From Clostridia bacterium (lineage in GTDB: Bacteria; Bacillota_A; Clostridia; Oscillospirales; CAG-272), in NCBI GenBank assembly GCA_017959485.1, contig JAGDAM010000320.1, positions 1 to 7,619 on the forward strand: a DNA stretch of 7,619 bases, given 5' to 3'. The notes beneath the pieces are model-generated. The model did no database searches, was not told the origin of the DNA, and saw only the letters and a list, made by a program, of their open reading frames with translations. Both the position numbers and the translations under genes were made by a program. Positions 4,215-7,613 of this stretch are shown here, in pieces; within the stretch, counting starts at the first letter, position 1; the number at the start of each line of letters is the position of its first letter.

Positions 4215-5300
4215 ATGGATCAATCAAAAGAACTCGACGCGAAGATGAACCCGGGCAAACCGGACGCCGACGGAATGGTCTGGTTCGACGCGTCGCTGCC
4301 TCCCTTTTCGATTTACGGCCTGTGGGCAACCGATCCCTACCGCCGTATGGACGAGACGGTCGCGGAACGGGTCAACCCGGGCGTAAAGCGCAACAACTAC
4401 CACACCGCGGGAGGACGCGTCCGCTTCTCCACCGACTCGGTCCGCATAGGCGTCCGGGTCGAAATGCCCTACGTCACGAAATTCTGCCATATGCCTCTGA
4501 CCGGCTCGTCATCCTTCGACGTATATCTCGACACCGACAACGGATCGGTATATCAGAACGTCTTCAAGCCCGACGTAAAGATTGAAAAAGGGTTCGAAAT
4601 GACGGTAAAAACCCGCGTCCGCGGATACCGCTCCTACACTCTCAACTTTCCTCTCTACTCGCCGGTTTCGCGGCTTGAAATAGGGATAGACGCCGGAGCG
4701 GCGCTCGGAGAAGGCAGGAAATACCTTCCGGTAAAACCCATTGTTTATTACGGTTCGTCGATAACTCAGGGCGCCTGCGCCTCGCGTCCCGGACTCGCGT
4801 ATCAGGCGATCATCTCCCGCAAATTCAATATAGATTTCGTCAACCTCGGCTTCTCCGGCAACGCGAAAGCCGAACCGGCGATGATGGAGTATCTGTCGGG
4901 ACTCGAAATGTCGGCGTTCGTATACGATTACGACCACAACGCGCCGAATCCCGACCACCTTCGCGAGACGCATCTCGCGGGCTACCGGACGGTCCGGGAA
5001 AAGAACCCCGACCTGCCGATCATCATTGCCTCGAAACCCGATTACATCTTCTCGCCGACCGACGGAAACAAACGCCGCGAGATCATAGAGGACACCTTCA
5101 GGTTCGCCCGCTCTCAGGGAGACGAGCACATCTATTATATCGACGGAGACGGATTCTGCCGCGGAGAATACGAGGATTCCTGCTCGGTCGACGGAACGCA
5201 TCCGAACGACGTCGGATTCGTCATGATGGCGGAAAAATTCGGCGCGACGCTGCGCGAGATATTCCGCGAAATGCCCGCCGACGAAGGAGAATCGAAATGA
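4215..5300 (+). CDS. SGNH/GDSL-family esterase, tandem copy 1
   Basis: A 361-residue SGNH-hydrolase-type esterase with an N-terminal beta-sandwich resembling the GxDLY domain (PF14607) and a C-terminal catalytic domain resembling Lipase_GDSL_3 (PF14606). Such enzymes remove acyl, often acetyl, groups from carbohydrates or other small substrates. The N-terminal domain contains FSIYGLW at 31-37 and AGGRVRFSTDS at 65-75. Block I is YGSSITQG with Ser182 as the likely nucleophile. Block II is NLGFSGN with Gly212, block III is DYDHNAPN with Asn242, and block V is VDGTHPND with Asp326 and His329. All four SGNH residues and the catalytic Asp are present. No signal peptide is visible, so it is probably cytoplasmic. 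GGAGGA at 4205-4210 supports the start. Its stop overlaps the start of a paralogue (ATGA). The substrate is unknown. Confidence 0.9.
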   Translation: MDQSKELDAKMNPGKPDADGMVWFDASLPPFSIYGLWATDPYRRMDETVAERVNPGVKRNNYHTAGGRVRFSTDSVRIGVRVEMPYVTKFCHMPLTGSSSFDVYLDTDNGSVYQNVFKPDVKIEKGFEMTVKTRVRGYRSYTLNFPLYSPVSRLEIGIDAGAALGEGRKYLPVKPIVYYGSSITQGACASRPGLAYQAIISRKFNIDFVNLGFSGNAKAEPAMMEYLSGLEMSAFVYDYDHNAPNPDHLRETHLAGYRTVREKNPDLPIIIASKPDYIFSPTDGNKRREIIEDTFRFARSQGDEHIYYIDGDGFCRGEYEDSCSVDGTHPNDVGFVMMAEKFGATLREIFREMPADEGESK

Positions 5301-6403
5301 GCGAAGAAGCAAAAAAGACGGAATACGCCGAACTTGATAAAAATATGATAGTCGAGACCGTCTTCCCCGACGCGGAGGACGCCGTTCTTCACAGCGTGCG
5401 GGAAGAGGTATTCGATCTTTACAATTTCTACGAGCCGCGCACCTCGGAACTGTTCGTAAGAATGCCCGCGGATACCGCGCGCGCCGCCAGCGAAAAGGTT
5501 TACCGCCTCTCGCGCGAGACCGCGGGAGGGAGGGTCCGCTTCACCACCGACTCGAAATACCTTCTCTTAAAGGCGGTCGAGCCGTCGGTCGGACGCAATT
5601 CCCACATCACTCTCGCGAGTTCGGCGGGGTTTGACGTATACGCCGACACCGATTCGGGCAGCCGCTTTATCGGAACCTTCATGCCTCCGTACAAGATGGA
5701 TCACGGCTACGAGCAGATCGTACGCTTCCCCGACAGAAAGACGCGGTCCTTCACAGTCAACTTCCCCGTCCACTCGACCGTCTCCGAGCTTTATTTCGGG
5801 ATCGAACCCGGCGCGTTTCTCGGTCACGGCAGACCTTACCGCGATATCGCTCCGATAGTCGTTTACGGCTCGTCGATAGTTCACGGAACCGCGGCCACAC
5901 GGCCCGGACTCGTCTACACGAACATCCTTTCCCGGCGCCTCGGAGCCGACGTCGTCAACCTCGGCTTTTCCGGCAACGCGAAAGCCGAGCCGGCGATGAT
6001 GGAATACGTAGCCGGTCTCGAAATGTCGGTTTTCGTATACGATTACGACCACAACGCACCGAATCCCGACTACCTTCGCGCGACGCATCTCGCGGGCTAC
6101 CGGACAGTCCGGGAAAAGAATCCCGACCTGCCGATCATACTCGTCTCAAAGCCCAATATCTATACGCGTCCGCAGGACGGTCTCGTCCGCCGCGACATAA
6201 TATCCGACACCTTCCGCGCGGCCCGTGCCGAGGGCGACCGGAGGATCTGGTTCGTTGACGGCGAGAGCTTCTTCCACGGCCGGCTCGAGGATGAATGCAC
6301 CGTCGAGGGAGTCCACCCGAACGACCTCGGATTCGTTCTCATGGCGGACGGAATCGAGGCGGTCATAAGACGCGCTTTGAACGCCGCCGGTATCGGAGTA
6401 TGA
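5297..6403 (+). CDS. SGNH/GDSL-family esterase, tandem copy 2
   Basis: A 368-residue paralogue of the preceding esterase with the same two-domain order. FDLYNF at 39-44 is the GxDLY-type motif, and AGGRVRFTTDS follows at about 76-86. Block I is YGSSIVHG with Ser193, block II contains Gly223, and block III DYDHNAPN contains Asn253. Block V reads VEGVHPND, so the usual catalytic Asp is Glu337 while His340 is kept. The two proteins share 57 of 62 residues from the block II strand past block III but are much less alike elsewhere. No signal peptide is visible. AAGGAG at 5284-5289 supports the start, and the ATGA overlap implies translational coupling to copy 1. The Asp-to-Glu change and the altered block I (IVHG for ITQG) suggest a different substrate range or reduced activity. 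Confidence 0.9.
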   Translation: MSEEAKKTEYAELDKNMIVETVFPDAEDAVLHSVREEVFDLYNFYEPRTSELFVRMPADTARAASEKVYRLSRETAGGRVRFTTDSKYLLLKAVEPSVGRNSHITLASSAGFDVYADTDSGSRFIGTFMPPYKMDHGYEQIVRFPDRKTRSFTVNFPVHSTVSELYFGIEPGAFLGHGRPYRDIAPIVVYGSSIVHGTAATRPGLVYTNILSRRLGADVVNLGFSGNAKAEPAMMEYVAGLEMSVFVYDYDHNAPNPDYLRATHLAGYRTVREKNPDLPIILVSKPNIYTRPQDGLVRRDIISDTFRAARAEGDRRIWFVDGESFFHGRLEDECTVEGVHPNDLGFVLMADGIEAVIRRALNAAGIGV

Positions 6404-6808: not shown

Positions 6809-7348
6809 ATGAAACACCCGAAAATCGTAATAAGCGTCAGAGGATACGGCGATATGACCGCCGAACTCTATCCGGAATACGCGCCCGTAACGGTAAAGAA
6901 CTTTCTTGAACTTGTGTCAAAGGGGTTTTTCGACGGGCTTATCTTCCACCGCGTAATAAAGAATTTCATGATTCAGGGAGGCGGATACCGGGAGGACTTC
7001 TCGGAGACCGACACTCCCGCGATCCGCGGCGAGTTCGCCGCCAACGGCTGGCCTCAGAACACGCTGAAGCACACGCGCGGCGTGCTGTCGATGGCCCGCA
7101 CAAGCGACCCCGACTCGGCGTCTTCCCAGTTTTTCGTAATGCACAGGGACGCGCCGCATCTTGACGCGCAGTACGCCGCCTTCGGAAAGCTGACCGACGG
7201 ATTCGACGTCCTCGACGCCGTCGCCTCGGTAAAAACCGGAAGGTACGGCTGGTTCTCCGACGTCCCGCGCGAGCCGGTGGTAATAGAGAAGATCGCCCTC
7301 GCGGAAGAAGAGGCAAAGGCCTTCGCGCCTTGCGGCGCTCGGCAGTGA
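6809..7348 (+). CDS. ppiB: Cyclophilin-type peptidyl-prolyl cis-trans isomerase
   Basis: A 179-residue single-domain cyclophilin that catalyses prolyl cis-trans isomerisation. It has no signal peptide and is probably cytoplasmic. The signature FHRVIKNFMIQGG at 46-58 contains the catalytic Arg48 and the pocket residues Phe53 and Gln56. SQFFVMHRDAPHLDAQYAAFGKL follows at about 106-128. His117 stands where human cyclophilin A has Trp121, a change common in bacterial enzymes and linked to weak cyclosporin binding. GAGGAG at 6798-6803 precedes the ATG, 13 bases after the mrnC stop. The last dozen residues (about AKAFAPCGARQ) look like an unstructured tail, and the TGA stop lies inside the first unit of a hairpin-repeat array. 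It is the last gene of the operon. Confidence 0.95.
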   Translation: MKHPKIVISVRGYGDMTAELYPEYAPVTVKNFLELVSKGFFDGLIFHRVIKNFMIQGGGYREDFSETDTPAIRGEFAANGWPQNTLKHTRGVLSMARTSDPDSASSQFFVMHRDAPHLDAQYAAFGKLTDGFDVLDAVASVKTGRYGWFSDVPREPVVIEKIALAEEEAKAFAPCGARQ

Positions 7349-7453
7349 AAATGTCCGGCTGCGCCGGACAGTGAAGTCGTCCGGCTTCGCCGGACTGTGA
7401 AGTAAAACGCTTCGCGTTTTGTGAAGTCTTCGGGCAGAGCCCGAAGGTGAAAA
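7345..7453. repeat. Phased array of GTGAAGT heptamers and 3-nt-loop hairpins
   Basis: Five heptamers begin at 7345, 7371, 7397, 7421 and 7447, with periods of 26, 26, 24 and 26 bases. The three inner ones are GTGAAGT and the two outer ones GTGAAAA. Each gap is almost entirely a hairpin with a 3-nt loop: TGTCCGGC/GCCGGACA (loop TGC), GTCCGGC/GCCGGAC (loop TTC), AAAACGC/GCGTTTT (loop TTC) and CTTCGGGC/GCCCGAAG (loop AGA). Stems differ in sequence but stay complementary, and each keeps GC-NNN-GC at its tip. The first heptamer includes the cyclophilin stop. No hairpin is followed by a clean T-run, so these are not ordinary terminators. The array could protect the transcript 3' end or be a mobile palindromic repeat family. 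I cannot assign it to a named family. Confidence 0.85.
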
Positions 7454-7455
7454 GA

Positions 7456-7489
7456 GACGTAAATCATAATAATTATTACGGTTTACGTC
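7456..7489. repeat. 34-base palindrome with AT-rich core
   Basis: The outer arms GACGTAAATC (7456-7465) and GGTTTACGTC (7480-7489) pair with one G-T wobble. After a single A-C mismatch the inner 12 bases, 7467-7478, are the perfect palindrome TAATAATTATTA. The whole can form a stem of about 17 pairs or a cruciform. It lies two bases after the heptamer array and directly before a GTAG-footed hairpin. Its AT-rich core contrasts with the GC-rich surroundings. It may be a separate palindromic element or part of a composite one. Confidence 0.7.
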
Positions 7490-7512
7490 GTAGGGGCGAG
7501 CATCGCTCGTCC
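7490..7512 (+). repeat. REP-like hairpin with GTAG foot
   Basis: GTAG at 7490-7493 directly precedes GGGCGAGC (7494-7501), a 3-nt loop ATC, and GCTCGTCC (7505-7512). The stem has eight pairs including one G-T wobble. A GTAG-type tetranucleotide at the 5' foot of a hairpin is the layout of bacterial REP sequences recognised by RAYT (TnpA-REP) transposases. No RAYT gene is in the window, so the match is structural only. Confidence 0.5.
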
Positions 7513-7592
7513 GCCTCCGGCCATCGACCATCCGCCTGAAAACGGTAACCGCCGAAGCAAATTGGTGATATCCAAAATACCATAAACGCGTG

Positions 7593-7613
7593 CCTTCCCC
7601 ATTTTGGGGAAGG
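7593..7613. repeat. Perfect 9-bp hairpin, likely edge of an interspersed element
   Basis: CCTTCCCCA (7593-7601), loop TTT, and TGGGGAAGG (7605-7613) form a perfect hairpin six bases from the window end, followed by GGGACC. This pyrimidine/purine stem resembles interspersed repeats I have an impression of seeing in gut Clostridia, and the element probably continues outside the window. It is not followed by a T-run in either direction. The stretch before it, 7513-7592, holds no gene or clear signal apart from a weak direct repeat. Confidence 0.5.

Follow-up and report, generated by a model that had tools for sequence, protein, structure and literature searches.

The closest described element to the repeat array analysed here is Gut-1 (RF01706), a candidate RNA which was reported from metagenomes in 2010 (PMC2864571). 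In the passages of that paper which concern it, Gut-1 is entered as 'Human gut only', as an RNA and as not cis-regulatory, and is counted among the RNAs likeliest to be expressed apart from mRNAs; Rfam types it as gene/sRNA. In the literature searched, the accession RF01706 was met only in PMC2864571 and the phrase 'Gut-1 RNA' nowhere. REP and BIME sequences are, according to the relevant sections of PMC3733652, PMC2817692 and PMC8266576, high-copy palindromes outside genes which are often clustered; the REPs carry a GTAG or CGTC tag, have family-specific palindromes, occur mostly as dimers and contain GT pairs in their stems. The BOX element of Streptococcus pneumoniae is presented in the pertinent part of PMC3049150 as a composite dispersed hairpin-forming repeat, which has modules at its ends and internal modules whose number varies, and which shares features with MITEs.

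The window, i.e. the whole 7,619-nucleotide stretch of Clostridia DNA that was analysed, contains an array in which five heptamer linkers alternate with four hairpins (Table 1). The linkers start 26/26/24/26 bases apart, and all four hairpins have 3-nt loops and GC-NNN-GC tips. GTCCGGC is common to hairpins 1 and 2, while hairpins 3 and 4 are unlike these and unlike each other. Direct reading thus confirmed the array as it had been described from the letters alone, and so did the shuffling experiments. The longest chain of linked hairpins in the window was 4, while in 2000 dinucleotide shuffles it was 0 in 1825 cases and 1 in 175; since two or more linked hairpins were obtained in 0/2000 shuffles, a chance origin is ruled out. 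When any 5-mer was accepted as linker, the window chain of 4 stood against at most 2 in 500 shuffles. The window array is a real feature and statistically strong. The folding z-scores of the 7320-7480 region were -3.9 for the plus strand and -6.3 for the minus strand, and the minimum-energy fold of either strand pairs hairpin 1 with hairpin 2, because these two are alike.

Table 1. Positions of the array components and of the neighbouring features in the window
Feature	Position	Strand	Remarks
ORF	6809..7348	+	179 aa, immediately 5' of the array
Possible 5' flanking hairpin	7325..7338	+	GCGCC TTGC GGCGC, within the ORF end
Linker 1	7345..7351	+	GTGAAAA; contains TGA 7346-7348, the stop codon of ORF 6809-7348
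Hairpin 1	7352..7370	+	8 bp, loop TGC
Linker 2	7371..7377	+	GTGAAGT
Hairpin 2	7379..7395	+	7 bp, loop TTC; outward next pair C-T unpaired
Linker 3	7397..7403	+	GTGAAGT
Hairpin 3	7404..7420	+	7 bp, loop TTC
Linker 4	7421..7427	+	GTGAAGT
Hairpin 4	7428..7446	+	8 bp, loop AGA
Linker 5	7447..7453	+	GTGAAAA
Match of covariance model R1	7345..7427	+	Sole match in the window at E up to 1; 30.8 bits, E 2.2e-6 (E-values of this self-built model are rough)
A+T-rich inverted repeat	7456..7489	+	Follows linker 5 directly; arms of 17 nt with 88% complementarity

The gene preceding the array, which we take to encode a cyclophilin-type peptidyl-prolyl isomerase, ends within the first linker (CAG TGA AAA). 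The five best relatives of its product align up to residue 161-168 of 179, and some weaker ones align further (to 172 in L006 and to 178 in L024). The nearest relatives, with at most 69% identity, belong to Clostridia assemblies, several of them from ruminant guts. No TGAAGT array could be seen by eye near the homologues of this gene in 15 relatives; in one of the homologous loci (L003) a TGATAAT array lies on the opposite strand beside the homologue. Both flanks of the window array have counterparts elsewhere: many arrays of the genus-mate genome G015 likewise have a hairpin on the 5' side of their first inner linker, and many arrays of G015 and G098 terminate in AAGG followed by an A+T-rich hairpin. 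No tRNA gene was found in the window.

Some further features of the window were noted. Just 3' of the array, positions 7490-7514 (GTAGGGGCGAGCATCGCTCGTCCGC) resemble a REP-like palindrome with a GTAG tag; in the relevant part of PMC3733652 other phyla are named for such repeats. At the end of the window (7593-7613) there is another perfect hairpin, CCTTCCCCA TTT TGGGGAAGG, and a piece similar to it adjoins a gene in L355. The ORFs 4215-5300 and 5297-6403 are adjacent, overlap slightly and share extended runs of identical sequence (NLGFSGNAKAEPAMMEY, VYDYDHNAPNPD), so that they look like a tandem duplication.

The sequence-only reading had found no named element with this design, which turned out to be wrong, as Rfam Gut-1 shares it. 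The Gut-1 consensus, in which (G)UGAAAU linkers alternate with three short hairpins, corresponds in design to the window array: in both, UGAAAU-type linkers stand between short hairpins in equal order and polarity. Model positions 1-77, the full length of Gut-1, align to window 7343-7432 linker to linker and hairpin to hairpin, with a score of 30.4 bits (E 2.2e-4 in the 221-base stretch searched). This is below the Gut-1 gathering threshold of 50 bits, and the window array formally stays outside the Rfam family. Unlike Gut-1, it has GTGAAGT and GTGAAAA linkers, which differ in the last positions, and longer stems. The array was also found by the covariance model R1, which was built from 27 arrays of other genomes with the window excluded. 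The matches to FourU, STnc490, Pseudomon-groES and other Rfam models were weak and under their cut-offs. The window array is related to a large family of dispersed repeats, among which Gut-1 is the one that bears a name.

Gut-1 itself turns out to be a dispersed repeat with many copies. Matches to it were present in 8 of the 10 genomes reached via the loci of relatives (in 7 of them above the cut-off), with 62 matches in G015 and 35 in G004. In the Clostridia family sample 102 of the 146 genomes had a match and 81 pass the Rfam cut-off. In the phylum sample at least 5 of 398 genomes matched, G015 itself being one of these; since stricter filters were used in both samples and few candidates were scored per genome (29 for the family, 11 for the phylum), the phylum figure has to be read as a minimum. 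E. coli, one of the 14 named control genomes, also matched, below the cut-off. The linker class of the window (three TGAAGT with unconstrained spacers) occurred in 28/146 family genomes, and the linker triple was found in at least 120 stretches of viral contigs. Among the 96 of 110 linker-only matches listed, 127 of the 139 distinct spacers were hairpins (at least 60% Watson-Crick pairs in a symmetric register), 88 of them perfect, whereas 200 rounds of shuffling gave 7.5 hairpins on average and never more than 17; six of the 12 non-hairpin spacers apparently come from coding or simple tandem repeats, as judged by eye. The reversed-pattern control of this search was uninformative, because TGAAGT read backwards is TGAAGT. 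A finder which demands hairpins, run over 201 records, returned chains of at least two in the window, L003 and L063 only.

The relatives were thus checked for further copies, which they do carry. The spread of a small palindromic element, one of the possibilities raised by the sequence-only reading, is borne out by the many copies per genome and by sites which differ between related species. A stand-alone small RNA acting in trans, as Gut-1 was first proposed to be, would agree with the Rfam type and with the statement, in the passages of PMC2864571 mentioned above, that expression apart from mRNAs is most likely. However, there are many diverged copies per genome and the window copy begins inside a stop codon, and we consider this explanation highly improbable.

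In the relatives, the unit consists of a short, usually perfect palindrome and an RTGA-type linker, and 2 to about 8 units follow each other head to tail. TGATGT, TGATAT, TGATAA and TGAAGT were found as further linkers in an identical design. In G015 an array often starts with a hairpin flanked by A4/T4; the TGAAAT-hairpin units come next, then either TTAAGG or TGAAGG and an A+T-rich hairpin, frequently continued by a bidirectional terminator and a second array facing the first. The defined ends suspected from the window are seen in G015 arrays. In a test in which the chains were allowed to mix linker classes, the linkers of an array were identical in 153/220 pairs in G015, where permutation gave 87.3 on average and at most 113, and in 82/105 pairs in G003, where it gave 38.0 and at most 55; in the sole G013 array with three or more hairpins the value was 0/3. 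Between the arrays of one genome the linkers differ. Identical hairpins within an array were obtained in 0/220 pairs in G015 (permuted mean 3.9), while in G003 they were commoner than expected (7/105 versus a permuted 1.9), which means that the hairpins are not diversified everywhere. Pairing is retained across units, which were preselected with a hairpin demand, despite strong sequence variation. The linker agreement, the kept pairing and the predominance of hairpins among the linker-only spacers sustain the earlier view that the heptamer is kept for its sequence and the hairpins for their pairing.

Arrays of G098 which are otherwise similar differ by whole modules at the linker borders, as seen by eye. 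Simple growth at one end, as in CRISPR, was rejected, since in 26 G015 arrays anchored at their 3' end the variation was not confined to one end: there were 7 distinct last modules (mean ratio 0.90), then 12 (0.74), 13 (0.65) and, at the fourth place, 14 distinct among 25 (0.73), the last module being the most uniform.

Several observations concern single genomes or loci. The G003 arrays are strongly clustered: contig C48 (159 kb) carries 17 of them, while there is 1 in 160 kb of contig C63 and there are 2 in 80 kb of C51 (overlapping listings merged). In L463 (G012), 3' of an ORF, a long minus-strand array has AATGAAGT linkers, which is another linker variant. Tandem 7-10-mers such as AGTTGCT and GTGGACA occur at gene 3' ends in L002, L003, L004 and L330, and in L003 and L330 they precede the same TTGAAGG-hairpin end that closes the hairpin arrays. 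In L317 (3058-3091) and L325 (3008-3036) a hairpin precedes the first TGAAAT linker on its 5' side, and the stem of this hairpin continues with perfect pairing into the last codons and the stop of the host gene; it looks as though an inverted copy of the flank had been made.

The placement of the arrays relative to genes was determined with gene calls from our own simple dicodon scorer, which was also used for synteny. In the stretches of G015, G003 and G013, 84 of the 85 arrays with at least two hairpins were intergenic. Among the regions of 100 nt or more, arrays were held by 12/18 convergent, 16/35 tandem and 4/16 divergent ones in G015 (stretches chosen for Gut-1 hits), by 2/13, 9/80 and 3/42, respectively, in G003 and by 1/18, 2/86 and 1/36 in G013 (contigs chosen for length or hits). 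Of the arrays in tandem regions of G015, 15 were in sense to the gene 5' of them and 8 were antisense; the corresponding counts were 4 and 9 in G003, and 2 and 0 in G013. The 19 arrays in convergent regions of G015 are sense by geometry. These counts indicate that gene ends are favoured in G015 and that the strand is not fixed; a strict sense-strand rule is ruled out by the antisense tandem placements. Many of the G015 arrays lie within 30 nt of the stop of the gene 5' of them, frequently before a terminator.

The main rival explanation is a 3'UTR RNA element, in which the UGAARU linkers and the hairpins of the transcript would bind a protein or block exonucleases and in this way set the fate of the upstream mRNA. 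It is compatible with the G015 arrays, common 3' of genes, close to stops and before terminators, and with the window array, which follows its gene in sense. The antisense arrays of tandem regions (8/23 in G015, 9/13 in G003), the arrays in divergent regions and the variation of the linker between arrays of one genome speak against it, and we regard it as unlikely.

Many high-scoring Gut-1 copies show a second arrangement, in which a tRNA or tmRNA gene is followed by a terminator, an array and a facing array. ARAGORN detected a tRNA/tmRNA gene in 18 of the 33 loci scanned (L260 and L307 are one place), and in the plus-strand cases the distance from the end of this gene to the T-run of the terminator was 25-41 nt in 11 of 12 and 156 nt in one. 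Such copies, lying beyond the terminators of tRNA genes, also speak against a role in the 3'UTR. Two copies of the element each were found in L417 (715 nt apart) and L427 (513 nt apart). In L417 (1960-2885) some 500 nt, in which there is one small ORF, lie between two 211-nt tRNA-side copies, and after these comes a tRNA-like fragment (GGGTTCGAATCCC); the arrangement looks like a cassette or a tandem integration at a tRNA gene. In L427 (2206-2400 and 2769-2950) a TGATAT-linker class alternates with a TGAAAT class behind one tRNA gene, and the linkers of the facing arms are reverse complements within each class.

Arrays are not tied to orthologous places at the sites compared. One G015 array occupies a 169-nt gap between two genes, presumably ileS and pyrK; at the same junction in four relatives the second gene begins 6-37 nt after the first and there is no array. 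In the other readable 3' flanks no array was seen by eye. For a second and a third G015 gene, an array was present within 500 nt 3' in 0/13 and 2/13 homologous loci of the genus; in some of these loci the homology is remote or partial, or the gene is an additional copy in a genome already counted. Since the homologues of those G015 genes mostly end near one residue, several of them with TGA, the TGA in those G015 arrays may be the native stop. No conserved gene pair was found around G015 array sites in 400 kb each of G003 and G013 and in further loci; 8 single genes from such sites had homologues, which were read by eye. The 3'UTR explanation does not sit easily with arrays that are not kept at the homologous genes compared.

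Palindromes that are selected as RNA tolerate G-U pairs on the transcribed strand, and do not tolerate the mirror image, A-C. With the basal pair excluded from the tally, the ratio of GU to AC was 3:9 in the array units of the set including the window, in which 137/207 units were perfect, and 8:10 in the linker-only set, while the terminator-like hairpins of these loci gave 58:30, or 40:12 without a preceding A-run. The pooled array units (11:19) differ from the terminator-like hairpins (40:12) with a Fisher p of 4e-4; these counts are small, the copies are related by descent and the two unit sets may share units of G005 and G015. The lack of G-U excess in the stems is a further argument against a 3'UTR RNA, whereas the pairing kept across units and the basal T-R pair, which fits U-G/U-A, are in its favour. 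Among 172 units, 117 have T-G and 40 have T-A as their basal pair (157 together), which fits both U-G/U-A pairing in RNA and plain conservation of the linker. DNA processes such as template-switch palindrome repair would give equal variation with kept pairing. In PMC3733652, where the GTAG repeats are discussed, their frequent GT pairs are taken as a hint of RNA function; the same reasoning applied to the present arrays points away from such a function. The proposal that a protein binds the element on the RNA strand is weakened, as the stems have no G-U excess and the strand relative to genes is not fixed.

A co-occurring RAYT/HUH-type gene was looked for as well, as the sequence-only reading had suggested such a partner. 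Gut-1 was present in 46 of the 55 family genomes positive for Y1_Tnp and in 56 of the 91 negative ones (p 0.005), with a mean of 8.6 and 5.7 matches, respectively; this association may reflect only assembly completeness. Y1_Tnp, covering the RAYT and IS200 types, gave zero matches in G015, G003, G006 and G013, which are draft assemblies, so that these absences are weak. Of the family genomes with ten or more Gut-1 matches (at most 29 candidates were scored per genome) 18/38 were without Y1_Tnp. The presence of the partner is therefore associated with the repeat, but it is seemingly not required. Movement as a REP-type element by a RAYT/IS200-like (HUH, Y1) transposase which recognises the hairpins gains from this association and from hairpins being the reported recognition sites of such enzymes. 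The array-bearing draft genomes without a match are set against it, and so is the combination of variable palindromes with a constant linker, the reverse of REPs; we find it quite doubtful. For the arrays, neither target-site duplication nor excision nor a transposase was found in the loci compared, among which there was no clean pre-insertion site. With regard to the marks of a MITE, terminal inverted repeats and target-site duplication, the tRNA-side copies carry facing arms and no duplication was seen.

On the sequence evidence, the probable explanation seems to be a DNA-level, non-autonomous, modular palindromic repeat that settles at the ends of transcription units. The window array would then be one copy of a modular, dispersed Gut-1-like repeat of an uncultured Clostridia family, which would spread and persist as DNA, as a non-autonomous element. 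Its palindromes may be made or repaired as DNA hairpins, either extruded or single-stranded in replication, and modules could be gained and lost between identical linkers. The repeat would survive where it is least harmful or where it is targeted, namely after stops, around terminators and after tRNA/tmRNA genes. The window copy lies at the 3' end of the putative isomerase gene, with the stop in linker 1; if it influences the 3' end of the mRNA at all, this would be secondary.

The DNA-level explanation is based on the Gut-1 design and the detection of the window array by a model built without it, on the copy numbers in G015, G004 and the family sample, on the linker-only matches with hairpin spacers together with the identity of linkers within arrays, on the lack of G-U excess and the intergenic position of arrays on either strand, and on array sites absent at homologous loci and the whole-module differences in G098. 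Counted against it are the failure to find target-site duplication, excision or a transposase, the small G-U/A-C counts, the kinship of the copies and the basal T-G/T-A pairs. The sense placements near stops in G015 and the sense window copy fit a 3'UTR role, and the kept pairing across units is also predicted by selection on RNA; the identical hairpins of G003 (7/105 versus 1.9) and the G013 linkers (0/3) are counted on the same side. A more specific scheme, which we offer only tentatively and think improbable, is that the linker, and not the palindrome, is the inherited identity of the array: new palindromes would enter at an RTGA sequence, in many cases a stop codon, this target would be duplicated and the palindromes remade as DNA. 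Such insertion would make the linkers alike in one array and unlike in different arrays, and a linker could include the stop codon of the gene itself. The window array would represent a preformed GTGAAGT array in a GTGAAAA target, which now flanks it on both sides.

For Gut-1, these results provide a host group and another nature, that of a repeat present in high copy number instead of one noncoding RNA. The repeat family is large, little-studied and scattered in uncultured gut bacteria, and its named relative is filed as a small RNA. The caution follows that stem covariation in repeats need not indicate RNA function; the tally of G-U against A-C is a simple test between DNA-level and RNA-level palindromes. 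The mobilising enzyme can be sought in the array-rich genomes, which form a natural series for this purpose.

CRISPR arrays consist of a constant short repeat with differing intervening units, and the present arrays are alike in having a short constant repeat with different units between; unlike in CRISPR, these units are palindromes and the variation in G015 is not confined to one end. The arrays share with REP and BIME sequences the many palindromes outside genes, frequently in clusters. They differ from REPs in the conserved linker, the head-to-tail units and the rarity of G-U, and where REPs have a family-specific palindrome with a GTAG or CGTC tag, they have RTGA-type linkers and variable palindromes, so that the logic of the repeat is the opposite one, constant linker and variable palindrome. 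The alternating unit orientation of BIMEs was not found either: the linkers are co-directional in the window, as seen by eye, and within the arrays of relatives, there by construction of the search, and the facing arrays are separate. BOX is alike in its end modules, its variable number of internal modules and its many dispersed copies, all of which were found in the arrays of relatives. It is unlike in its host, in its sequence-modelled modules and in the TIR and TSD ascribed to it in the pertinent part of PMC3049150, while the present arrays have variable palindromes and a constant linker. The array is similar to BOX or BIME in modularity and location, and it is not a REP by the features tested.
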